In this document: positions 11,233 to 55,950 of the stretch, one piece after another
How positions within the stretch are numbered: position 1 is the first letter of the stretch
How the letters are laid out: the number at the start of each line of letters is the position of its first letter
Source: Sycon ciliatum
Taxonomy: Eukaryota > Porifera > Calcarea > Leucosolenida > Sycettidae
Length of the DNA stretch: 64,000 bases
Direction of reading: 5' to 3'
NCBI RefSeq assembly: GCF_964019385.1
Contig: NC_088645.1
Span: 42,570,831-42,634,830 of the forward strand
Translations under genes and position numbers: made by a program
Notes under the pieces: model-generated
Told to the model about the DNA's origin: nothing
What the model saw: the letters and a program-made list of their open reading frames with translations, nothing else
Database searches by the model: none

Positions 11233-11468
11233 CCCAACTTGGGCGGGCCAGGAATATCAAAGATACATGTAATGGAAGGGGAAGCTTTGCGAAAACGAAT
11301 TGTACAAAACTAGACGCCAATATCTAACGGTATTCCTCACGCATGACACTATTGTGGACGAGTAGACTACGATAACAAGTACGTGATTGTACTTCATAAG
11401 TTTCTTCAAAACTCGTTCTCTTGTGTTTTCTTCTACTTTGCATTTATTTTTGGCTCAGTATCCGAGTT

Positions 11469-11787
11469 CAGAACTAAATATTGCGACAGAGCTTTCAGCC
11501 ATATTTTCAATTCATTGCATTCCCAACTCATCACAACCACGCGCTCCTCAGCCGAACCATACAGACACCAGCAAGGACACTTCCGTTGAGAGATAATATT
11601 GCTCCACGCCTCTAGACAGCTGTTTCGCTCCCTGTCGGAGCTCATCAGTAGAGGATGATAATGATGATAATGGAGGAATGATCATTCTTATACACCAGAA
11701 ATGGCGCAAGTGCGCGATTATATCAATGGCATATGCAAGCTGCTAAAGCTGAAGAGCGCGTGGTTGTGATGAGTTGGGAATGCAATG
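11469..11787 (-). mobile_element. Dispersed hammerhead (retrozyme-like) partial monomer with 12 bp target duplication
   Basis: Closely matches the start of the 846 bp array unit at 48.5 kb (ACTAAATATTGCGACAGAGC through AATGGCATATGCAAGCTGC). It is bounded by AGTATCCGAGTT on both sides (11457-11468, 11788-11799). The last ~40 bases are an inverted copy of its own 11513-11553 segment, as produced by template switching or twin priming. There is no ORF. Confidence 0.8.
11609..11654 (-). ncRNA. Hammerhead ribozyme (intact motif)
   Basis: On the minus strand: stem I CCUCUA / UAGAGG (6 pairs), core CUGAUGA, stem II GCUCC-GACAG-GGAGC (5 pairs), box GAAA, stem III ACA-GC-UGU (very short), and cleavage after GUC. 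All conserved core residues are present. The tiny stem III is typical of the hammerheads reported in Penelope-like elements and metazoan retrozymes, which often act as dimers. Confidence 0.9.
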
Positions 11788-12014
11788 AGTATCCGAGTTA
11801 GTTAACTTAAGCACAAAAATTATCAAAAATAAAGAATGAACAGTGCAAACCCAGTAAAACAAAGGATATTCAAACCCAAGAGCAAAAGTGGTCTGTGATG
11901 GAAACTAGTCCCAGACCGTCAATGTGTACAAGTAGCTGGTCATGTGACCAATACAACAGCAATGTCTAAAACGTAGAGTGCACGTGTTGGTACTTACTTC
12001 CTTTTCACTCATTC

Positions 12015-12064
12015 AGGAGTCTCTGATGAGGTGTGAATGACCGAAACAACTGTCGGAAAGTCTT
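12015..12064 (+). ncRNA. Hammerhead-like motif, left arm of palindrome 2
   Basis: Stem I AGGA-G-UCU / GGA-AAG-UCUU (two short helices with an internal loop), core CUGAUGA, stem II GGU-GUGAAUG-ACC (3 pairs), box GAAA, stem III ACA-AC-UGU, cleavage triplet GUC. The core is intact. Stem I is weak, so activity is uncertain. Confidence 0.6.
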
Positions 12065-13390: not shown

Positions 13391-13440
13391 AAGACTTTCC
13401 GAAAGTTGTTTCGCTCATTCAGACCTCATCAGAGACCCCT
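13391..13440 (-). ncRNA. Degenerate hammerhead-like motif, right arm of palindrome 2
   Basis: Inverted counterpart of 12015-12064. CUGAUGA and GAAA are intact, but stem II pairing is poor (GGUC...GAGC), and stem III with the cleavage triplet reads CUUUC instead of CUGUC. Likely inactive. Confidence 0.5.
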
Positions 13441-14004
13441 GAATGACTGAAATTAGTGAAAAGGAAGTAAGTACCAACAAGTGCACTCTACGTGTTAGAC
13501 ATTGCTGTTGTACTGGTCACGTGACCAGCTACTTGTGCACATTGACGGTCTGGGTCTAGTTTCCATCACAGACCACTTTTGCTCTTGGGTTTGAATATCC
13601 TTTGTTTTACTGGGTTTGCACTGTTCGGGAGAATGAAGTCGAAGACACCACTGCAGCTGTACTTATGGTTGATAATTATGGTGGTAAAGACACACCTTGC
13701 AATATGGCGGTAAACACACGCCTGCATGATGATAGACATTGCCGATGTACATTCACATTTACATCTTAATAATATATTTACAAAAAAAGCAGAAGAGAAG
13801 AGAGACAGCCGGCTAGGTCATTGTTGTAGGGCTGCGTTTCATGCACATAGCAAAGCTAAGGCAATCCTCAGACAACTGATAACCTCTACATCATCTCGGT
13901 CCAAATTTACACCCAGGCAGGTAGCTAAAACAGAGCGCGCAAAGTGAGTAAAGCGCCAAAACGCAGGTGGCATAGCGCAGTATCGGCTCGAAATTACGTC
14001 TACT

Positions 14005-19292: not shown

Positions 19293-19806
19293 CAGTGTAT
19301 ACTCGTATACTCCTAGTATAGATTTGTTAAACGGTTAGCAGGAACTAACCAGTGTATACTCGTATACTCCTAGTATAGATTTGTTGAACGGTTAGCAGGA
19401 ACTAACCAGTGTATACTCGTATACTCCTAGTATAGATTTGTTGAACGGTTAGCAGGAACTAACCAGTGTATACTCGTATACTCCTAGTATAGATTTGTTG
19501 AACGGTTAGCAGGAACTAACCAGTGTATACTCGTATACTCCTAGTATAGATTTGTTGAACGGTTAGCAGGAACTAACCAGTGTATACTCGTATACTCCTA
19601 GTATAGATTTGTTGAACGGTTAGCAGGAACTAACCAGTGTATACTCGTATACTCCTAGTATAGATTTGTTGAACGGTTAGCAGGAACTAACCAGTGTATA
19701 CTCGTATACTCCTAGTATAGATTTGTTGAACGGTTAGCAGGAACTAACCAGTGTATACTCGTATACTCCTAGTATAGATTTGTTGAACGGTTAGCAGGAA
19801 CTAACC
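19293..19806. repeat. 57 bp minisatellite, 9 nearly identical copies
   Basis: The unit begins CAGTGTATACTCGTATACTC and ends GCAGGAACTAAC. Starts fall every 57 bases (19293, 19350, ... 19749). Only the first unit differs (TTAAACGG for TTGAACGG). Each unit holds the hairpin GGTTAG-CAGGAA-CTAACC and the nested GTATACTCGTATAC. Confidence 0.95.
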
Positions 19807-20255
19807 AGCGCTAAAACCACCTACAGTACAACATGTACATGTACAGGAGAGAGAGACTCAGTGTTTGTCACAGACGAATACTCTGCTTCAGCTCCTCCCA
19901 TATCACAAGTAAACAAGAGAACCTCGCGGAACAGGAGCTACATGTACATGTATAGTTGTGATCGGTACATGTAGAATGAATGGACTAAGAGTTGATGGAC
20001 AAGCCGTTGATTATCCACTCTCATTGTTATATCAGTGCTGATGTTGTTCAGAACAACGAAACGTCTGGAGAAGTACCGTAAATATTTCTATCTTTATTTA
20101 TCAAACATACCACTCTCTGGTCAAGAAAGAATACTTTTTGATAATGATAATGAATGGACTGCACATACTCGTGCTATGCATTGTAGTCTGTTCGATGGTG
20201 ATGTAGTGTAAGAAAGCACCTGTGCTGAACTCATACAGTAATACGATAAGAAGAC

Positions 20256-20936: not shown

Positions 20937-23900
20937 TTATGAAAAACGGTCCAGGTAGGTTTTCAGCGGAATAATAGCGTTTCCTGCTTCATCCATCAAG
21001 TATTCCTCCGGCTCCCAGGTGGCATCTCGGTAGCCCTTCCATTTCACTAGGTACTGCGTGCGCCGTCCTCTCTTCTTGTGCGACAACACCTTTTCGACAA
21101 TGTACCGCGTATGGCCATCCGCATCGGTTAGGGGTGGAGGTGCCGGCTGAGTACGGCCCGGTATCTCATTGCCATGGTACAGCTTGAGGGCAGCAATATT
21201 GAACACTGGATGGGCCCGAATGATTCTTGGAAGAGCTAATCTGTACGCATTCGGGGCCACTTTCTTCTGCACCTTGAACGGCCCATACCACTTGAGCCTT
21301 AATTTGTGTGAAGGCCTGTCTCGTTCCTCGGGCGTCAGCAGGAAGTCCCTGAAGACCAACACCTCATCCCCCTCCTTCAGGGCGTCCTCCACCCGTCCTC
21401 GATCCGCATACAATGATTGCCGGGCCTGCGCCGCCACGATGGCATCCTGTGCCTCACGTAGTGCCTCTACGCGGCCATCCAGCCATGACAGCGGACCATT
21501 CGTGTCCATGCCAGCTCCAGCTTTCTGCTTCGTCAATAAGCTCGAGGGAGTAACTGGATGGCATCCATGGTTGAGGAAAAATGGCGTGTTACCTGTTGAC
21601 GCTTGATCGGCATTGTTGATCGCAAACTCACATAGCGATAGGAGTTCATCCCAATTGTTTTGCCTATGGTTGACGAAAGCTCTTAGCGTATCCTCAATGA
21701 CACGGTTCACACGCTCAGTCATGCCATCGGTCTGCGGGTGGTTGGCCGTGCTCATTTTTAGCTCCACGCCAAGAATACTGAAAACCTCCTTGAAGAACGC
21801 CGACGTGAATCGCGGATCTCGATCACAAACTATCGTTTTGCTCAAGCCATGGGCAGCAAACACATGATCCACGTACAATCGGGCTGCCTCCTTAGAGTCA
21901 ACATGAACAGTCGTCGGGATCAGGTGCACATACTTCGTCAGACGGTCCACAAAGGTTAGAATGGCGCTATGTCCTCGGCAGGTCAGCGGCAGTGCCATGA
22001 TGAAATCCATGCTGATGTCTGTCCAGGGCTGTTCGGGGACTGGAAGGGACTGCAACAGTCCTGCCTTGGTCTGGCTACCCTTTACGCGTTGGCACCGGTC
22101 GCAAGATTTAACGAAGTCCTTCACAGTACTTCTCATGCCTGGCCAATAGAAGTATCTGCTCAGCTTCAGGTAGGTCCTGTCTCTCCCCGGATGGCCGGCC
22201 GTCAGGCAATCATGATTCTGTTTGAGCAGTTGCAGCCGTACCGGACCGCGAGGAATGCAGAGGCGAGCATCGCCCGATGTTACTAGGTACAGCCGCCGGT
22301 CCACACTGTTCCAGACGTATCGCTCATGCATGGCGTCTTCGCTGCAAGCCATCAAGCGCTTGATTACTGGCGAAAGCTCTGGGTCACTATCATACCCTGC
22401 TGAGATCTGATTCGCAATTCCTTGATTCACATCCAGAGAGAACTCGATTCCATTCAGTTCCAAGTCTGGTCGACGTGACAACGGGTCTGCTATGTTACAC
22501 TTCCCTGGCTTGTGATGTACCGTGTAGTCATAGTCGGCCAGGAATTCAATCCATCGAGCCTCTCTCTTGGTTAAGTTTGGTTTGGTCCTGAGGTAGACAA
22601 CTTCCATGTTGTCGGTGTAGAGTTGAAAGTGGCGAAATAGGTAGACTCGCCAGCACTGCAGGGCGTACACTACAGCCAAAGTTTCTCGCTCGGCGGCCGT
22701 GTAATTCCGTTCGGCAGAAGACAGCTTTCGGCTCACGTAAGCCACAGGATGCCAGGACTGGTCCTCTGCTTGCTGCGTTAAGACTCCTGCCACAGCAAAG
22801 TCACTTGGGTCAGTCTCAACGCGGAAATCCTGACTGACGTTTGCTAGTCGCAACACTGGTGCATCCAGCAGAGCAGACTTCAATCGCTCAAATGCCTCCT
22901 GTCGAGTCTGATTCCACTCGAAGCGCACATGTTTCCCTGTCAGTTCCTCCAGGGGTTTGGAGATGGCCGAGAAATGGTTAATGAACCTTCGAAAGTAATT
23001 AGCGAATCCCAGAAACTGTCTTACGTGCGTGACCGTCGTCGGGAAAGGCCAGTTATGCACGGCCTTGATCTTCTCTGGATCTGGGGAAATGCATTGGCCG
23101 TCTATCCGGTGCCCAAGAAACAGAACGTCTGTCCGGCCGAATTCACATTTAGACGGTTTGCAATATAGCTCATTCCTCCTGAGGGCGTTTAAGATGGTTC
23201 TGGCATGATCGAGGTGCTCCTCCCATGATTTGCTGAATATGAGGATATCGTCTAGAAACACCACAACGAATTTACGCAGGTATGGCTGGAGGACACTGTT
23301 CATCAAGGTTTGGAATGTTGCCGGGGCATTTGTTAGGCCGAAACCCATCACTGTGAACTGAAAGTGACCGAATGGGGTATTTATTGCTGTCTTCGGAATA
23401 TCTGTTTCTTCTATTCGAATCTGATTGTAACCGGACCTCAGATCTAGCTTGGTGAAATACGCACTGCCTTGGACGGTATCAAAGAGGTCGTCAATATTCG
23501 GTAGGCATGCCTTGTTCTTAATGGTTATGCGGTTTAGCTCACGCCAGTCGCATACCATTCGAAGTGTTCCATCCGCCTTCTTTACGAAGAACACAGGGGC
23601 TCCGTATGGGGATTTGCTGGGCTGGATGAATCCTCTACGGAGCAGCTCGGTGAGCTGAGCTTGAAGCTCATCCATCTCTGGTTTTGGTAAACGATATGCT
23701 GCACGAGATGGCGGTTTAGCTCCTTCTTCCGTTTTTATCTCGTGATCTGCGCCTCTTCTGGGTGGCAGCTTGTTTTGAAGCTCATCGGGAAAGACGTCCC
23801 CAAACTCCTTCAGCAGGTCCTTGAAATCCTTCTGATCCTCCCTACCCGGACTATCCACCGTCTGTGGCTCGTCCGGATCTGCTGTCACATACGCTAGGAT

Positions 23901-24041
23901 TCCTTCTGCGCCACCTCTCATTGCATGCCTAGCCTGCTTCTCTGAGATGAGGAACGTCTCGATCGGTGGGTTGGATTTGTCCGTGCCATCACTTTCACTC
24001 GGTTGACAGATGATGGATCCACCCTCCAGCTTGATTTTCAT
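20937..24041 (-). CDS. pol: Chromovirus Pol: RT, RNase H, integrase, chromodomain
   Basis: 1034 codons, opening with MKIKLEGG. RT (residues ~110-320) has FVVVFLDDILIFS with the two catalytic Asp. RNase H (~385-510) shows FRVETDPSD, AAERETLAVV and LYTDN. The integrase zinc finger (~615-660) has HDCLTAGHPGR...CDRCQ (HHCC). The catalytic core has MDFIMALP, VCDRDPRF and the Glu in GMTERVNRVIEDT. A GPF module KWYGPFKV follows. The C-terminal chromodomain (~980-1030) reads YIVEKVLSHKKRGRRTQYLV then KWKGY...TWEPEE, which in this family steers integration to marked chromatin. The length is normal and no stops interrupt it. It is in the gag frame, +1 relative to protease, with a 47-base overlap. Confidence 0.97.
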   Translation of the reverse strand: MKIKLEGGSIICQPSESDGTDKSNPPIETFLISEKQARHAMRGGAEGILAYVTADPDEPQTVDSPGREDQKDFKDLLKEFGDVFPDELQNKLPPRRGADHEIKTEEGAKPPSRAAYRLPKPEMDELQAQLTELLRRGFIQPSKSPYGAPVFFVKKADGTLRMVCDWRELNRITIKNKACLPNIDDLFDTVQGSAYFTKLDLRSGYNQIRIEETDIPKTAINTPFGHFQFTVMGFGLTNAPATFQTLMNSVLQPYLRKFVVVFLDDILIFSKSWEEHLDHARTILNALRRNELYCKPSKCEFGRTDVLFLGHRIDGQCISPDPEKIKAVHNWPFPTTVTHVRQFLGFANYFRRFINHFSAISKPLEELTGKHVRFEWNQTRQEAFERLKSALLDAPVLRLANVSQDFRVETDPSDFAVAGVLTQQAEDQSWHPVAYVSRKLSSAERNYTAAERETLAVVYALQCWRVYLFRHFQLYTDNMEVVYLRTKPNLTKREARWIEFLADYDYTVHHKPGKCNIADPLSRRPDLELNGIEFSLDVNQGIANQISAGYDSDPELSPVIKRLMACSEDAMHERYVWNSVDRRLYLVTSGDARLCIPRGPVRLQLLKQNHDCLTAGHPGRDRTYLKLSRYFYWPGMRSTVKDFVKSCDRCQRVKGSQTKAGLLQSLPVPEQPWTDISMDFIMALPLTCRGHSAILTFVDRLTKYVHLIPTTVHVDSKEAARLYVDHVFAAHGLSKTIVCDRDPRFTSAFFKEVFSILGVELKMSTANHPQTDGMTERVNRVIEDTLRAFVNHRQNNWDELLSLCEFAINNADQASTGNTPFFLNHGCHPVTPSSLLTKQKAGAGMDTNGPLSWLDGRVEALREAQDAIVAAQARQSLYADRGRVEDALKEGDEVLVFRDFLLTPEERDRPSHKLRLKWYGPFKVQKKVAPNAYRLALPRIIRAHPVFNIAALKLYHGNEIPGRTQPAPPPLTDADGHTRYIVEKVLSHKKRGRRTQYLVKWKGYRDATWEPEEYLMDEAGNAIIPLKTYLDRFS

Positions 24042-24678
24042 TGGTACGAAAATTGATCTGTGGGTTCGTCCGGGTCAGCCATGGTTTGCCGAGGATCACG
24101 TCATACCGCGTCATAGGGAATACTAGGAACTGTTGGTGCTCGCTAAAGTCGCCGACTACGGTCTTCAAGCTGTCCGTTTTCGTAATAGGCTGTGAGCGGA
24201 CCGATCCATCAGCAAGTGTGACGTTCAGGACGTCGCTACCGGTTGTTGTGGAGATGTTGTGCTTCTTGACAAGGTCAGTTGAAATGAAGTCGTGGGTTGA
24301 CCCAGAAACCAGTAGCATGGTAACGCGACGTCCATTTATCTTGCCCTGGACGCGCATTAGGTCGTGTTCGTTGTCGGCGGAAATGCTCCCTGTGCTGGCG
24401 GTTACTTCATTAGGCCGGCCAACAGTATCAGGTGACGAATGCTTGACAGGCGAGGCTTGAATTTCGGTCTCCTCGAGGCGTGGATCCTCATTTGCTAAGG
24501 GGCTGAATTTGTTCTGAACTTTGATTCGTGGCCTATTCCTGGGTGCTCTCGTGTTCGCCAGTAGTCGCACTCCCTTCCTTACTGGCGTCCATCGTTTAAA
24601 GAAGGCTTGCTTGTGGCGTTCCTCCCTCCTTCTGGACAGAATCTGGCAATATGGCCGGGTTTCCTGCAGGTGAAACAC
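23995..24678 (-). CDS. Chromovirus protease region (active-site Asp replaced)
   Basis: 227-codon frame overlapping gag by ~100 bases (-1 relative to gag). The second half is a retropepsin-like fold: GKINGRRVTMLLVSGSTHDFIS, LADGSVRSQPI, then MTRYDVILGKPWL. Family proteases have Asp before S/T-G-A/S at the first motif (D-S-G); here Val occupies that place (LLVSGS), so the catalytic dyad cannot form as read. The rest of the fold is conserved. Either this copy is defective for maturation or a recent point mutation hit it. The downstream frame change to pol is at about 24041. Confidence 0.85.
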   Translation of the reverse strand: MFHLQETRPYCQILSRRREERHKQAFFKRWTPVRKGVRLLANTRAPRNRPRIKVQNKFSPLANEDPRLEETEIQASPVKHSSPDTVGRPNEVTASTGSISADNEHDLMRVQGKINGRRVTMLLVSGSTHDFISTDLVKKHNISTTTGSDVLNVTLADGSVRSQPITKTDSLKTVVGDFSEHQQFLVFPMTRYDVILGKPWLTRTNPQINFRTNENQAGGWIHHLSTE

Positions 24679-25463
24679 AGCCTTGAACGACCCTCTGGCT
24701 CCCTGGTTTCTCTCCCACCGGATGGTGTTGGTTGGCTTGACCAGGGTCCAGGCTGGCGCCTCTGATGCCCTGGTGCGCGCACTGCCTTGGCGTAGCTTGC
24801 TTGGGCTAGCCGCATCGACTGGTCTGCTGAGACCGCAGCTCGTATGGCTTGGGCCAAATGTTGCGGATGCTCCCTAAGTACCTCACCGCTTAGGCCCTGA
24901 GCCAGCCCACGCGTGAAAAAGATAGCTCTGGAGTGGTCATCAAGCTCGGAAACTTGTAAGCTAAGCCACGAAAATTTGTTGATGTATTCGTCAAGAGTCT
25001 CATCTTGGTGAAGAGCGAATAAGTCGATGCGCGCATGTTCCCTGTCATAAACCGGGCCGTACACTTCTCCCAGCTTGCTCTTCAGGTCTGGCCAGTCGGA
25101 AAACAGCGTGTTTGCCTCCTGAGAGGCGATAAACCAAAGACGAGCGTTGCCCTCCAGAAAACTCGCCGCGTAGCTCAAGCGCTCCTCCGCGTTGTCCAGC
25201 TGCAGGGACTTCATGGCGAGTTCGATGGCGAAGGCCCACTCCTTGAACTCTCTTGTATCTCCACGAAACACAGGCGGGGACTTAACATGGCGCATGCGTG
25301 GCCTCTCTCCGCTGGGAGCTTGAGCACGTCTTGGCGTTTGATCTGATCCATCGCACTGACCGAGTGCGATAAGGTGATTCAGACGCTTCTGAATCTCGAA
25401 TATACCGTAGGCGACTAATGCGGCCACTGCGCATAGCCCGAACATGACGAAAAGAAAAACCAT
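24579..25463 (-). CDS. gag: Chromovirus Gag with N-terminal hydrophobic segment
   Basis: The first ATG (25463-25461) lies within the tRNA primer-binding site; the open frame continues upstream into the LTR without another ATG. The N-terminus MVFLFVMFGLCAVAALVAYG is strongly hydrophobic and looks like a membrane or signal segment, unusual for a Ty3/gypsy Gag. The capsid region follows, with FKEWAFAIELAMK, NARLWF, WPDLKSKL and ARIDLFALHQDETLDEYINK, typical of chromovirus Gag. Near the C-terminus is a CCHC knuckle, CFTCRKPGHIARFC, for nucleic-acid binding. The stop at 24579 overlaps the protease frame. Confidence 0.93.
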   Translation of the reverse strand: MVFLFVMFGLCAVAALVAYGIFEIQKRLNHLIALGQCDGSDQTPRRAQAPSGERPRMRHVKSPPVFRGDTREFKEWAFAIELAMKSLQLDNAEERLSYAASFLEGNARLWFIASQEANTLFSDWPDLKSKLGEVYGPVYDREHARIDLFALHQDETLDEYINKFSWLSLQVSELDDHSRAIFFTRGLAQGLSGEVLREHPQHLAQAIRAAVSADQSMRLAQASYAKAVRAPGHQRRQPGPWSSQPTPSGGRETREPEGRSRLCFTCRKPGHIARFCPEGGRNATSKPSLNDGRQ

Positions 25464-25476
25464 CCTCTTGCTACCA
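25460..25476 (-). promoter_or_regulatory. Primer-binding site, initiator tRNA-Met type
   Basis: Minus strand TGGTAGCAAGAGGATGG starts two bases inside the 5' LTR. It complements the 3' end of initiator tRNA-Met except for one extra A in the middle (recalled tRNA end; not checked by search). Confidence 0.8.
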
Positions 25477-25477
25477 G

Positions 25478-25658
25478 TGTAACAGTCCAACTAACTTCAG
25501 TAGTCATTCTTGGAATAAGCAATGATCCTTGCCATAATGCATTCTTATATACATGAACAAGCAATGATGGACATAACACCTAACAGCAGCAGCGTGATAA
25601 TAGCAGGTGATAAGTGTATCCTATTCCTAGTGTTAGTAGTAACAGTGAATCTGTTACA
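25478..25658 (-). repeat. Chromovirus 5' LTR
   Basis: 181 bp, TG...CA, one difference from the 3' LTR. Flanked by GAGAT on its outer side. Confidence 0.97.
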
Positions 25659-41345: not shown

Positions 41346-41864
41346 AAATGGCCTAAATTGAAACTTGAACTGTTCTGCCAAGTTTTATGCAGTGAACGCA
41401 GGGCTGAGAGCCCGCAAGAGCCATCCCGGCAGATCTTGTGCGCCACCAACCGAACCTTCGGTGAATGTTCACAAGGTTAGAAGCTCGTACAGATAACACA
41501 CATTGGATGCTAATAGTAATACAATGCACTCAGGAATGTGTGCAAATACGACAGAATTAATTCCAAATAAAGTCAACAATAGCTGCCTCAACACAGTGCT
41601 ATCCACCTTCCGTATTTTCCATATTTGTACGGAAAATCACTACTTCGTCCACGCTATGGATTTTGAGAAAAATGTACAGAAAATTGAACGGGATTGATCA
41701 GTATGTATAAGCATTGCAAGTGCAAGCTGAGCGATGAAAAGAAGAGAACCGAGTGGAAAGAAAACGCTGCAGTGGAGAGTCCTTAGAAAAGACTTTAAAA
41801 ATATCAATAATATCGCTGCACGAGATCATCCTTATAAGTTATAACGTCAGCTGATCGTACTGTG

Positions 41865-42460
41865 GTTGATTCATACGGCGGTAAATACACACCTGCCTAC
41901 ACACGCTCTCTAAACTGAAAAGTTATTCTGGCACAGAGCTCTCCTTCCCGCCACCACCACCATCATCAGTTCGCGTCTGGCGCCTAGTCGATGCAGGGTG
42001 AGTGGTGTCCGACATAGCAGGCTGGTACATCAGGTAGCGTATGGCGCATAGCAGATGACACAGCAACAACATAGCTTGATTGCGACGTACCTTTCGTCCC
42101 GGCTGGACTCATCAGGCAATCTTCTTCTTAGATGTCTTCACAAGGAGCTTGACTCGGGAGAATGAAGTTGAAGACTCCACTGCAACTGCACTTATGGTTG
42201 GTTCATATGGTGGTAAATACACACCTGGCAATATGGGGGTAAATACACGCCTGCCCAGACACGCTCTCTAAACTGCAAAGTTATTCTGGCACAGAGCTCT
42301 CCTTCTCACCACCACCACCACCACCACCACCATCAGTTCGCGCCTGGCGCCTAGTCGATGCACGGTTAGCGGTATCCGACATAGCAGGCTGGCACATCAG
42401 GTAACGCATGGCACATAGAAGATGGCAACGACATAGCTTGATTGCGACGTACATTTCGTT
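41865..42460. repeat. Direct duplication ~270 bp
   Basis: GGTAAATACACACCTG...GACACGCTCTCTAAACTG and CGCCTAGTCGATGCA...ATAGCTTGATTGCGACGTAC occur at 41880-42091 and 42210-42451. The GAGAATGAAGTTGAAGAC segment (42159) also matches 13630 beside palindrome 2. (CCA)n at 42310-42332. Confidence 0.8.
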
Positions 42461-48460: not shown

Positions 48461-48496
<36 letters not shown>

Positions 48497-48637
48497 TCAG
48501 GACTAAATATTGCGACAGAGCTTTCGGCCATATTTTCAATTCATTGCATTCCCAACTCATCACAACCACGCGCTCTTCAGCCGAACCATACAGACACCAG
48601 CAAGGACACTTCCGTTGAGAGATAATATTGCTCTACG

Positions 48638-48683
48638 CCTCTAGACAGCTGTTTCGCTACCTGTCGGAGCTCATCAGTAGAGG
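48638..48683 (-). ncRNA. Hammerhead ribozyme, array unit 1
   Basis: Stem I CCUCUA/UAGAGG, CUGAUGA, GAAA, stem III ACA-GC-UGU and GUC cleavage triplet intact. Stem II has one C-U mismatch (GGUAGC opposite GCUCC). Predicted cut on the minus strand falls between 48644 and 48643. Confidence 0.85.
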
Positions 48684-49483
48684 ATAATAATGATGATAAT
48701 GGAGGAATGATCATTCTTATACACCAGAAATGGCGCAAATGCGCGCTTTCCACATATATCAATGGCATATGCAAGCTGCTAAAATGGTAAAGTGTGAGAA
48801 CAGCGATAAATAATCATAGTACGCGCTCATTGGTGAAGAAACACACCACACAAGCGATGAAAACCTGACGCGGAATACTGATGCCAATGGAAAGTACATG
48901 TATGTTGTTTATTATTATGATGTCGCAATGTCCATGTATTCAGGCGAGGCTAGACTCACCGCCGAGATCCCCCAACGCGACAGGCTCGGTTGCCGTTCAG
49001 GATTCACACCGACCTGTCCGCCCGTCAACAGGATCGACAGCGGGAGGCCCCACTGATGCCGATGTTGATGCACACCGGGAAACTTGTAGTCGTGAGTGTG
49101 ATACTAACAGGTCTAGTACTAGCAACCACTGACAAACGAGAGGCCAGCTGGGGCATTCACTCCAGTCAGGGATGCTTGGTCGACGCTTCGTATCAGCAGC
49201 TCAGCTCAGTTTGATCAAAGATGTTGCAGATGTGTCTTGCTTTCCTCCTTCCTTCTTCACCGACTCGTCTTGTCACCTCTTCTTCTTGCTTCCCCGACAC
49301 TTCGTGTTCACTCTGCTCTGCCACTAACGGCGCATTAAAACTTCAGAACTAAATATTGCGACAGAGCTTTCGGCCATATTTTCAATTCATTGCATTCCCA
49401 ACTCATCACAACCACGCGCTCTTCAGCCGAACCATACAGACACCAGCAAGGACACTTCCGTTGAGAGATAATATTGCTCCACG

Positions 49484-49529
49484 CCTCTAGACAGCTGTTT
49501 CGCTACCTGTCGGAGCTCATCAGTAGAGG
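49484..49529 (-). ncRNA. Hammerhead ribozyme, array unit 2
   Basis: Identical to unit 1, including the stem II mismatch, exactly 846 bases on. The shared mismatch indicates units 1 and 2 derive from one recent duplication. Confidence 0.85.
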
Positions 49530-50329
49530 ATAATAATGATGATAATGGAGGAATGATCATTCTTATACACCAGAAATGGCGCAAATGCGCGCTTTCCACA
49601 TATATCAATGGCATATGCAAGCTGCTAAAATGGTAAAGTGTGAGAACAGCGATAAATAATCATAGTACGCGCTCATTGGTGAAGAAACACACCACACAAG
49701 CGATGAAAACCTGACGCGGAATACTGATGCCAATGGAAAGTACATGTATGTTGTTTATTATTATGATGTCGCAATGTCCATGTATTCAGGCGAGGCTAGA
49801 CTCACCGCCGAGATCCCCCAACGCGACAGGCTCGGTTGCCGTTCAGGATTCACACCGACCTGTCCGCCCGTCAACAGGATCGACAGCGGGAGGCCCCACT
49901 GATGCCGATGTTGATGCACACCGGGAAACTTGTAGTCGTGAGTGTGATACTAACAGGTCTAGTACTAGCAACCACTGACAAACGAGAGGCCAGCTGGGGC
50001 ATTCACTCCAGTCAGGGATGCTTGGTCGACGCTTCGTATCAGCAGCTCAGCTCAGTTTGATCAAAGATGTTGCAGATGTGTCTTGCTTTCCTCCTTCCTT
50101 CTTCACCGACTCGTCTTGTCACCTCTTCTTCTTGCTTCCCCGACACTTCATGTTCACTCTGCTCTGCCACTAACGGCGCATTAAAACTTCAGAACTAAAT
50201 ATTGCGACAGAGCTTTCGGCCATATTTTCAATTCATTGCATTCCCAACTCATCACAACCACGCGCTCTTCAGCCGAACCATACAGACACCAGCAAGGACA
50301 CTTCCGTTGAGAGATAATATTGCTCCACG

Positions 50330-50375
50330 CCTCTAGACAGCTGTTTCGCTCCCTGTCGGAGCTCATCAGTAGAGG
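50330..50375 (-). ncRNA. Hammerhead ribozyme, array unit 3 (all stems intact)
   Basis: Stem II is fully paired (GCUCC-GACAG-GGAGC), as in the dispersed monomer at 11609. All core residues are conserved. Confidence 0.9.
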
Positions 50376-51186
50376 ATGATAATGATGATAATTGATGAAT
50401 GATCATTCTTATACACCAGAAATGGCGCAAGTGCGCGCTTTCCACATAATATCAATGGCATATGCAAGCTGCTAAAATGGTAAAGTGTGAGAACAGCGAT
50501 AAATAATCATAGTACGCGCTCATTGGTGGAGAAACACACCACACAAGCGACGAAAATCTTACTCGGAATATTGATGCCAATGGAAAGTACATGTACTGTA
50601 TGTTGTTTATTATTATGATGTTGCAATGTCCATGTATGCAGGCGAGGCGAGACTCACCGCCGAGATCCCCCAACGCGACAGGCTCGGTTGCCGTTCAGGA
50701 TTCACATCGACCTGTCCGCCCGTCAACAGGATCGACAGCGGGAGGCCCCACTGATGCCGATGTTGATGCACACCAGGAAACTTGTAGTCGTGAGTGTGAT
50801 ACTAACAGGTCTAGTAGCAACCACTGACAAACGAGAGGCCAGCTGGGGCATTCACTCCAGTCAGGGATGCTTGGTCGACGCTTCGTATCAGCAGCTCAGC
50901 TCAGTTTGATCAAAGATGTTGCAGATGTGTCTTGCTTTCCTCCTTCCTTCTTCACCGACTCGTCTTGTCATCTCTCCTTCTTTCTTCACCGACTCTTCGT
51001 GTCCACTCTGCTCTGCCACTAACGGCGCATTAAAACTTCAGAACTAAATATTGCGACAGAGCTTTCGGCCATATTTTCAATTCATTGCATTCCCAACTCA
51101 TCACAACCACGCGCTCTTCAGCCGAACCATACAGACACCAGCAAGGACACTTCCGTTGAGAGATATTGATATTGATATTATGTGGA

Positions 51187-51223
<37 letters not shown>

Positions 51224-51234
51224 TAGATGTATAG

Positions 51235-51265
51235 CAGGGAGTCATATTATGTGAACGACTCCCTG
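51235..51265. mobile_element. 31 bp minimal hAT-like relic
   Basis: CAGGGAGTC ... GACTCCCTG with only 13 bases between the ends; flanks ATGTATAG and CTGTATGG match at 6 of 8. The ends match the 4.3 kb hAT at 40479, suggesting an extreme deletion derivative. Confidence 0.55.
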
Positions 51266-51367
51266 CTGTATGGAGAGATTTTCTGGAAAGAAATACGAAG
51301 TAGGAAGACGAGTAAATGTAATCAGAATGGATGTTAGTTAACGTCAGTATAATAATAAGAAGAAGAA

Positions 51368-53204: not shown

Positions 53205-53923
53205 ATGAATGGCCATAAAGCCAAGGCACCTAGCCCTGCCGAGAGTTTGTGCAGTGTGCAGTGCGAAGCTAAGGAACCTTTGCAAGCTGGTGCGAGGAAA
53301 CGGATACGCGACGCTCCGGATTGCGGCTTACAATCGGTAGGGAGTATCAATGTAGAAGGTGTTGTTTCGCTTGATTTACTAATCTCGGAATTCAGAAAAA
53401 CAATGAACGAAGTTCTTGATGATAGAATGGCGGCCATAATTGTTGAAGTTGAAGAATTGAAGGATACATGCACAGAACTCAAGGAAAGAGTAGAAGTGCT
53501 TGAGCACCGCAACCGCAAACTGACATGCACTGTGGAGTCTCTTGGGAGATCCGATGCATCCAGAACGCACCCGTCATCTGTTGCAGGGCCCCAACTCGAC
53601 CACACCGTATGGGAAATCGTCCTGGAAGAGCGCCGGCAACATGACCTCCAAGATAACGTGATCATCTCAGGACTTCCGGAGTCCGATGTTGAAAATCTCA
53701 CCCAGCTTGTGAGCGGGCTGGTGCCCAAAGTGAACCCAACTGCCATTACCGTGAGACGAATAAGGAAGCCCTTGGAGAACAAACCCCGGCTGGTTCACGT
53801 TCAAGCAGCTCCGTGCCAAAGGTATAAGATGTACCCTTCCGCTTGACATAATTCTTGTTGAGGGAAAGCCGGTATCCCAGCAGGATATCCAGCGACTTTT
53901 GTCAGGTAATTCTTCTGCATAGG
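53205..53923 (+). pseudogene. LINE ORF1 (coiled coil plus RNA-binding domain)
   Basis: ORF1 proteins of CR1/L1-type LINEs coat the transcript. The chosen start is MNGHKAKAPS at 53205. A coiled coil follows (VEVEELKDTCTELKERVEVL, 53440-53500), then an RRM-like start QDNVIISGLPESD, VRRIRKPLENKPRLVHV. At ~53800 a one-base frameshift breaks the frame; the C-terminal KQLRAKGIRCTLPLD and VSQQDIQRLL continue in the next frame to a stop at ~53921. ORF2 begins almost immediately after. Confidence 0.8.
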
Positions 53924-53929
53924 ACCTAC

Positions 53930-55950
53930 GGGGATCTCCAAAAACCGCATTTAGAGCAATAACACTGTGCACTATTAACTGCTGCAGCCTTATAAGCAAG
54001 CAAGCGGAAATCGTACAGTTAGTCAAGTCAGAATCGGTCGACATTATCTGCTTGACAGAAACCAGGCTCAAGCCCAATATACCAGATGCGGCTATTGCGA
54101 TTCCTGGTTACACATTGTACCGTTTTGACCGCGCCAACACATCCCTACCATGGTCCCAACTTGGTGGGGGTGGAGTGGCGCTATTTGTCAAGGAAAAATA
54201 TACGTGCAGTGTTCGACAACAGCCTGGGAATAACAGCTGTGAAATGCTATTGGTTGAGGTAAAGCTTCCTGGTAGACCTCTGTTTGTATCTGTTTGGTAC
54301 AGACCTCCACGACAACCAATTGCTGCAATTACGAATTTATTTAACGAGCCCTCTCATGTATTCGATGACCACAACTGTATAGCGTTAGGTGATTTCAATG
54401 CAAGAAATTGTGCATGGAACAACTCTGACGTCACTGACAGTAGTGGTAGAGCACTGCAACTGGCATTTGTGCAATATGGATTCACGGTTATCAATAAGGA
54501 TGGTAAACGCCCCAGTATGCGCAGTGGTTGCACTCCTCTACTTGACATCATAGCAACCAATATTCCAGATATCATCTCGTCAATCACCACTCTCCCACCC
54601 CTGTCAGACCACTGCCCCGTTATCGTTTCTCTTACACTACGTGCACCAACACCACAACGGACAACTCTACTGCATCGAACAATTGATTTTAATAGGCTTC
54701 GTTTCCTGATGGAAAGGGAACCATTCCTTGAGCGCCTCTATGGATGTGAAACTGATGATGCTTCTTGGAAAGCATGGGAATCCCATTTCCTAGATTTAGT
54801 TGAAAGGTCATCAACCTGGGTGCGTAAGCGTGATCAGCGAAATCAGACATGGTACACACCTGACCTGCGTCAATTTCAGCGGCGACAGAATAGACTGTAC
54901 CATGCTTATTTGCGAAATCCACAATCAACTGAAGCAAAGGCAGCGTACTGTGTATCCAGGAATATTTATCGTAAGAAAATCCGTGCTGCCAGATCTGCCT
55001 TTCTTGATCGCAACGCTGCCAGTATCTCGAAGGGTTGCACGAAAGATGGATATGTGTGGTGGAGGAGAGTTAAGGATTTTTGCAACATTTCAACTCGTAA
55101 ACCATTGATACCAGATTTGCAAGATGGCGATCGTCGGACTAACACGCAATTGGAAAAGGTGAACCTTCTTGCACAGCATTTCGCCAATCAGTGTACGTTA
55201 CCACAAGAAGCAAATCAATTCCCTTGTTTAGATTCCTCCCTTGACACTACCACTCCTCGGTTCCAGATGCCAACATTTTCACCAGGTCAAGTCCACTAAG
55301 ACCTTACAGATCTTTCGTCTCGAAAATCGACTTCAAGTAATTATGTTATTCCAGTACTCCGGTCCATGGCTGATTTAGTATGCGAGTCCTTGTCTTACTT
55401 GTTCAACTCCAGTCTATCCACATCACAATTTCCCAGTGCAAGGAAATCAGCAACGGTTATTCCTCTTTCCAAGTGTAAAGGAAGTGTTTCTTTGCCCACG
55501 AACTACCGTCCCATTTCACTGCTCCACCCCATCAGCCGCCTCTTCGAATCCCGCATAGCCCATCACCTGAACAGCTTTCTTTACCGTAATTGCAGAATTC
55601 CGCCCAGTCAATTTGCTTACGTTCCACAACGATCAGCTACGGATCAACTCATTCTTTTGACCCATCAGATTGCCCGTCTCTCTGATAGAGGCCAGAGATT
55701 TGACTGTGCATTTCTCGACTTCCAGAAAGCGTTTGATAAAGTACATCATCCTACGCTCCTGGGCCACATGAATGCATTCATGGCACCAGAGGCACACGCC
55801 TAGTTTGGGTCCTACTTGCTTGACCGTAGTCTAAATGTGAAGCTGGATGGAACTCCCTCTTCTCAATATATGCTAAACTGCGGTGTTCCCCAGGGTTCGT
55901 ACCTTGCCCCTCCGCATTTTCTTTTGTATATCAATTCCCCTCTGCCTCTG
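53930..55950 (+). pseudogene. LINE ORF2: APE endonuclease and partial reverse transcriptase
   Basis: One frame throughout. Endonuclease: INCCSLISKQAEIVQLV, CLTETRLKPN, GGGGVALFVKEKYTC, WYRPPR, ALGDFNARN and LSDHCPVIVSL, including the catalytic Glu, Asp/Asn and His. Linker WYTPDLRQFQRRQ and YVWWRRVKDF. RT: ATVIPLSKCKGS, NYRPISLLHPISRLFE, DFQKAFDKVHH (first catalytic Asp), CGVPQGSYLAPP. Stops occur in frame at 55297 and 55801. It breaks off at ~55950 beside a MITE, before the second catalytic motif. Clade CR1-like by layout. Confidence 0.9.

Follow-up and report, generated by a model that had tools for sequence, protein, structure and literature searches.

A hammerhead-bearing tandem array in Sycon ciliatum as a probable insertion of a dispersed, protein-less element with a Penelope-like footprint

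Metazoan retrozymes are described as having a repeat unit of 150-450 bp and as giving RNA circles that are highly self-paired, while plant LTR retrozymes, according to the same paper, have a type III hammerhead, LTRs with a PBS and a PPT, and 4-bp target duplications (PMC7229834); the plant repeats are given elsewhere as ~700 bp long (PMC7761336). For hammerheads of the HHR_Amex1 type, cleavage is reported to be poor in single copies and efficient in dimers (PMC7229834). Penelope-like elements (PLEs) leave a different kind of insertion. In Adineta, Penelope insertions combine direct and inverted, head-to-head pLTRs, with a 31-bp tail that is optional at one of them, are flanked by target duplications of 8-10 bp, and can have cargo moved in trans (PMC3846280). 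In the Anolis PLE, the hammerhead cut lies 85-92 nt before the short end, judging by the published positions, and the reading frame starts inside the hammerhead; the tails are explained by two internal reverse-transcription start sites, and the passages on in vitro work in that paper describe two adjacent start sites and report no strand difference (PMC11167929). One review names PLEs, as an inference, as likely candidates for mobilising metazoan retrozymes (PMC7761336). In a search of titles and abstracts, with a coverage that mostly excludes subscription papers, none dealt with a retrozyme, hammerhead or Penelope element of Sycon or any sponge, and none since 2021 dealt with a PLE-type non-autonomous hammerhead element.

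The window, that is the whole stretch of 64,000 nucleotides of Sycon ciliatum DNA analysed here, contains a tandem array of three complete units (846, 846 and 848 bp) and ~135 bp of a fourth, all on the minus strand (Table 1). The CTGATGA cores start at 48677, 49523 and 50369 on that strand, a spacing of exactly 846. An earlier note on this DNA had described such an array, with (AAT)n on both borders and units 1 and 2 nearly identical, and in these respects it was accurate, the identity of units 1 and 2 being 99.65%. Unit 3 is 96.1-96.2% identical to units 1 and 2; two subfamilies (A and B) are present within one array, so the array has either recombined or been copied from something other than a single monomer. 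It is also without a long inverted arm and is not a clean example of the two-armed insertions described below. The 18 bases at its 5' junction recur on the minus strand within unit 3, at 50439-50456. A second, solo copy in the window has one long and one short end.

Table 1. Positions of the array, the solo copy and their parts in the window
Feature	Position	Strand	Remark
12-bp target duplication AGTATCCGAGTT, left copy	11457..11468	.	right copy 11788-11799
Solo 5'-truncated copy, long 3' end at left	11469..11787	-	
Solo-copy hammerhead motif, family form	11609..11654	-	
41-bp inverted arm of solo copy, short end at right	11748-11788		by BLAST
(AAT)n, target microsatellite, 3' end of array insertion	48463..48496	.	
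Unit 1, subfamily A, 3'-most in element sense	48497..49342	-	
Unit 1 hammerhead motif, stem II mismatch	48638..48683	-	predicted cut between 48644/48643, from motif
Unit 2, subfamily A	49343..50188	-	
Unit 2 hammerhead motif, stem II mismatch	49484..49529	-	predicted cut between 49490/49489
Unit 3, subfamily B, near family consensus	50189..51036	-	
Unit 3 hammerhead motif, family form, perfect stem II	50330..50375	-	predicted cut between 50336/50335
Partial unit 4, unit positions ~713-846, 5'-truncated array end	51037..51173	-	length ~135 bp
18-bp inverted element piece, 5' junction of array	51171..51188	+	
(AAT)n, target microsatellite, 5' side of array insertion	51187..51222	.	

The motif has the layout CCTCTA-CTGATGA-stem II-GAAA-C-AGCT-G-TC-TAGAGG, with a stem I of 6 bp and a stem III of one standard pair closed by an AGCU palindrome. 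Stem II pairs perfectly in unit 3; units 1 and 2 each have a single mismatch there. The core, the 6-bp stem I and the perfect stem II of unit 3 had already been proposed from the letters, and all were seen again here. A search with a strict type I pattern, requiring 6 bp in stem I, 4 bp in stem II and a stem III that can close, gave two hits in the window, at 50369 and 11648 on the minus strand, and none in 400 dinucleotide shuffles; the motifs are thus far above chance, in line with their identification as hammerheads. Units 1 and 2 miss this pattern because of their single stem II mismatch. Covariance models matched the motifs below threshold only: when 2.9 kb were searched under relaxed settings, Hammerhead_HH9 gave all three motifs 22.7-23.8 bits (E 0.008-0.018), against a gathering score of 52, and no Rfam family reached its gathering score anywhere in the window. 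In the Hammerhead_1 search of the genome, in which 74 of 76236 candidates were scored, the window array is absent from the 21 matches listed.

Across 56 copies (20 fetched loci and the window), the family form of the motif is identical in 43 and the cleavage triplet is changed in one. The hammerhead was not seen to be more conserved than the rest of the unit, 319 of whose 797 46-base windows vary no more. In the minimum-energy fold of the isolated, unconstrained strand, stems I and II pair and stem III is replaced by pairing with the core; as this differs from the catalytic fold, catalytic folding stays a prediction from the motif. By analogy with the axolotl motif, cleavage would likely take place as a dimer (PMC7229834). 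The newt and axolotl repeats of ~330-350 bp (HHR_Amex1) resemble the Sycon unit in their 1-bp stem III and palindromic tetraloop, and differ from it in unit length and host as well as in the PLE-type insertion ends found here (PMC7229834).

With unit 2 as query, 852 candidate places, not to be taken as confirmed copies, were found in the 538-Mb genome, and the best 40 of these were scored, giving 138 matches. Queries with partial units gave 1060 and 1039 candidate places, equally not confirmed copies, with 40 scored each. The copies are scattered in the genome, as expected of a mobile, dispersed element and not of a local satellite. The 138 matches fall into 40 clusters, 27 of which are head-to-head, the left arm lying on the minus strand and the right arm on the plus strand; the other 13 have one arm only and include the window array and three arrays on contig C10. 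The two arms are joined at their 5' sides, and arm lengths and inner junctions vary freely.

Outer ends were assigned to two classes, defined after inspection of the data: long, at unit position 836-846, and short, at 790-812. These preferred 3' ends lie about 146 and 100-105 nt downstream of the predicted hammerhead cut. Among the 27 head-to-head clusters, 21 pair a long with a short end, none has two like ends and six have a non-standard end. With the solo copy in the window added, 22 two-armed insertions have standard ends on both sides, and in every one of them a long end faces a short one, so that the outer standard ends of the two arms always differ by ~45 bp. If the ends were independent, the chance of this would be at most 0.5^22, or ~2 in 10 million, a figure to be read with the post hoc definition of the classes. 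For 17 of the 22 the flanking sequence was read as well; the other five rest on match coordinates. Some loci from the partial queries were left out since a partial query cannot separate an end from a continuation: six pairs in which a short end lies opposite an arm reaching the long end (C13:14116882, C10:17495363, C1:49145766, C6:87961, C1:69014183 and C5:31146544) and five others (C8:2643219, C8:2544124, C11:1565991, C11:16550931 and C12:2795485).

Target duplications of 10-16 bp, counted as exact matches in which a few bases may overlap by chance, flank 16 of 29 insertions; eight insertions lie in (AAT)-type repeats and five have no convincing duplication. Targets are often (AAT)n, and tandem units occur among the insertions. 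In two loci, unit copies are split by unrelated inserts of ~505 bp (L045:2182-2685) and ~390 bp (L058:3285-3670), at nearly the same unit position (~205-228).

These features bear on two other explanations. An ordinary satellite, carrying its hammerhead by descent and spread by unequal crossing-over, would fit window units 1 and 2, which arose when a unit was duplicated locally, later than the segmental duplication of the array. It is contradicted by the target duplications and made very improbable by single or partial copies on many contigs with duplications of their own, fixed 3' ends and inverted arms. A fold-back DNA transposon, with the inverted arms as its terminal inverted repeats, would likewise produce palindromic insertions with target duplications, but the variable arm lengths and inner junctions, the 13 single-armed clusters and the constant offset of the outer standard ends do not fit it, and the hammerhead points to RNA; we regard this explanation, too, as highly unlikely.

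The earlier note had compared the array to a giant retrozyme. In common with metazoan non-LTR retrozymes, it has non-coding tandem units, a type I hammerhead, a GC content below 50% (48% in the unit) and long target duplications, that is longer than 4 bp (PMC7229834). A canonical metazoan retrozyme of giant size, living as a self-cleaved 846-nt RNA circle, would also be consistent with the lack of a long ORF. The unit, however, is unusually long, as had been remarked, measuring 846-848 bp against the 150-450 bp described for retrozymes, and the RNA is not highly self-paired (PMC7229834): the circular fold of the 843-nt consensus, 61% paired, has a z of +1.9 relative to 40 shuffles and is thus no stabler than these. 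The genome also has a canonical retrozyme family of its own with a 228-bp unit, for which 52 candidates were found and 40 scored. None of its 40 clusters is head-to-head, in a test that admitted opposite arms up to 3 kb apart and would miss arms too short for E 0.001, compared with 27 of 40 in the 846-bp family. In one such retrozyme (L003), the 3' end lies ~15 nt past the cut and the flanking duplication is 12-13 bp. The comparison with a canonical retrozyme is accordingly not supported, and we consider it improbable. By insertion anatomy, with head-to-head arms and a single tail that the sampled 228-bp retrozymes lack, the 846-bp family groups with the PLEs. Plant LTR retrozymes are similar in being long, non-autonomous units with a hammerhead (PMC7761336); they differ from the Sycon element, which has a type I motif and duplications of 10-16 bp (PMC7229834).

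In insertion anatomy the element resembles the endonuclease-bearing PLEs Pen2a of Adineta and Poseidon PAc of Anolis, as far as these are described in the two papers (PMC3846280, PMC11167929). All share direct and head-to-head repeats, an optional tail and partial tandems, a type I hammerhead followed downstream by two internal sites at which reverse transcription starts, and AT-rich targets with ATT, the duplications being 8-10 bp there and 10-16 bp here. The differences are that no reverse transcriptase (RT) or nuclease ORF was found in any Sycon copy seen, that the hammerhead has a 1-bp stem III with an AGCU loop as opposed to the minimal form of PLEs, and that the repeat unit is 846 bp in length, compared with 181-218 bp for the pLTRs of Pen2a (PMC3846280). 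On these sequence features, the 846-bp element is best described as a non-autonomous PLE with a hammerhead, which shares traits with retrozymes and exceeds their published length range. We therefore read the window array as an insertion of a dispersed, protein-less hammerhead element with a PLE footprint, likely mobilised in trans by the RT/GIY-YIG enzyme of the genome's own PLEs, and give this reading a probability of roughly three in four.

A search of the genome for GIY-YIG domains gave 13 matches, nine of them, by our reading, in frames with a PLE-type RT or linker and two (L060 and L061) similar in DNA to one such frame. By their architecture, we read the RT/GIY-YIG frames of the genome as Penelope-like. 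In the frame at L070, Pfam names GIY-YIG only, and RT domains occur in its homologues. Two of these loci (L067 and L071), read by eye, have head-to-head arms, one of which ends short while the other carries a tail, and duplications of 10-14 bp. The PLE hammerhead of this genome is of the minimal form; in L070 its predicted cut precedes the short end by 85 nt, much as in the Anolis PLE (PMC11167929), and a like arrangement is described for the Adineta Penelopes (PMC3846280). A PLE query gave 599 candidates, 40 of which were scored; their 3' ends lie either at 475-482 or at 436-453. Among compact pairs in opposite orientation, four look long/short, on a partial query that does not separate an end from a continuation; among wider pairs, two look long/short and one short/short (C1:3521719 and 3525061), and at C12:9668940 an opposite piece has a non-standard end. 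One of the two other GIY-YIG loci, L059 (G000:C291:5914-6141), has a long frame with a complete, bacterial UvrC-like GIY-YIG domain, and its contig is possibly symbiont or contaminant DNA in the assembly.

Comparison of the 846-bp unit with 12 GIY-YIG loci gave no significant match, a 13-mer shared with L070 (E = 6.7) being left uncounted. No RT/GIY-YIG ORF was found in the window array or, as far as seen, in the 40 clusters, so the element can be called a PLE in the non-autonomous sense only. The unit could alternatively be the terminal repeat (pLTR) of an autonomous PLE family, the copies being its solo and tandem pLTRs. The hammerhead and the two 3' ends are placed as in the pLTRs of PLEs, and a 61-codon frame starts at an ATG within the hammerhead core of the consensus, as the frame of the Anolis PLE does (PMC11167929). 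However, a coding insert between two units was found in none of the 40 scored clusters. The 61-codon frame is interrupted in L042 and L051, where 5 bp are deleted, and in window units 1 and 2, which have a stop; its peptide has no match above chance among 101 PLE-related proteins. We consider this alternative unlikely and rejected the frame as coding.

The origin of the individual insertions was approached through the differences between their units. Insertion-specific variants, defined as absent from the other fetched insertions (save L048, a partial duplicate of L047), occur in both arms of nine of the 13 fetched two-armed insertions (L042, L043, L044, L047, L051, L054, L055, L057 and L058); L045, L050, L056 and the solo copy in the window have no variants to compare between arms. 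In the three loci with at least two complete units besides the window and C10 arrays (L042, L048 and L050), unit identity within a locus is 99.5-99.9%, compared with 97.7% between loci. The window and C10 arrays are exceptions, their unit 3 differing by 3-4%. The four complete units of L050 differ by private changes only, and in L043, L051 and L057 the units inside one insertion are not all alike. The 5' ends are scattered, with none between unit positions 691 and 703, and the predicted cut is at 700. A linear, cleaved monomer was rejected as the usual template, as the 5' ends do not cluster at the predicted cut. Together with the variants common to both arms, the scattered 5' ends suggest that the usual template is uncut or circular, a circle being simplest and a transcript of a homogeneous array the alternative. 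The proposal of the earlier note that an RNA copy, multimeric or circular, was integrated is likewise the best reading.

The window array itself has a longer history. Three arrays on C10 match it at 98-99%, and the match extends ~0.5 kb into the flank on either side; they are truncated at unit position 713-714, as in the window, and have only 2.16 units. Because array, flanks and truncation point are common to the three C10 arrays, the window array goes back, on this alignment, to segmental duplication of a single insertion into (AAT)n, and units 1 and 2 are, by the same comparison, the product of a later unit duplication within it. Among the 56 copies examined, the stem II mismatch is confined to window units 1 and 2, so it arose in the window lineage before the unit duplication. 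The near-identity of these units is consequently a local feature and not a trait of the element, the three C10 arrays having one such unit.

On the preferred reading, that of a protein-less element moved by PLE enzymes, the following sequence of events may be proposed. A staggered cut of the target would expose two 3' ends, each of which would prime synthesis at one of two internal start sites in the element RNA. As template, a multimer left uncut could serve or, as the simpler possibility, a circle of 846 nt that the hammerhead had released by cleavage, probably as a dimer, and that had then been ligated. Joining of the two cDNAs would complete the two-armed insertion. The window array would afterwards have been copied by segmental duplication and gained one unit. 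Transcription, cleavage, the 846-nt circle and trans-mobilisation by a PLE enzyme are steps that we infer. More tentatively, the 846-nt circle might be copied repeatedly from both break ends, each with its own start site, in a two-site, double-primed form of rolling-circle retrotransposition; head-to-head multimeric arms would then derive from one RNA circle, and the insertions would record which end used which site. We regard this version as possible but rather unlikely.

In this one genome, PLE-like genes and canonical retrozymes occur together with a third hammerhead element, which carries the PLE footprint. As this footprint is found on the 846-bp element and not on the sampled retrozymes, the question of who moves what can be tested from insertion ends. 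The pairing of long with short ends in all 22 insertions also sharply limits the ways in which PLEs could prime the two strands.

Other hammerhead-like sequences were also noted. On C8 of the same genome, three retrozyme matches (G000:C8:8215003, 8218451 and 8221899) are exactly 3448 bp apart, from which spacing the retrozyme copy rides in a 3.4-kb tandem repeat. In the window, a diverged dimer of a ~358-bp repeat (41863-42459, minus) looks like an old retrozyme: it has a hammerhead-like motif at 42078-42125, with a 6-bp stem I (GATTGC/GCAATC), a perfect stem II and a lost closing pair in stem III (GAAAGGTACGTC), and its second copy retains only GAAATGTACGTCGCAATC. A ~250-bp repeat present in inverted copies has two hammerhead-like cores, at 12010-12060 (+) and 13395-13446 (-); given their weak stem I, these are possibly decayed or due to chance.

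The window further contains tandem arrays of a 57-bp unit (19293-19808; 9.1 copies, 99% matches) and a 22-bp unit (1964-2333; 16.8 copies, 95% matches), and gag/pol-like long frames at 20937-25490 (-) that we interpret as an LTR element of the Ty3 type. At 53923-55803 (+), a LINE-like frame includes an endonuclease domain. Adjoining the array, at 51230-51270, lies a near-perfect hairpin, AGCAGGGAGTC...GACTCCCTGCT, with no more than a sub-threshold match to mir-929; the target duplication of the L055 insertion, ACTCCCTGATGTA, is similar to this hairpin sequence.
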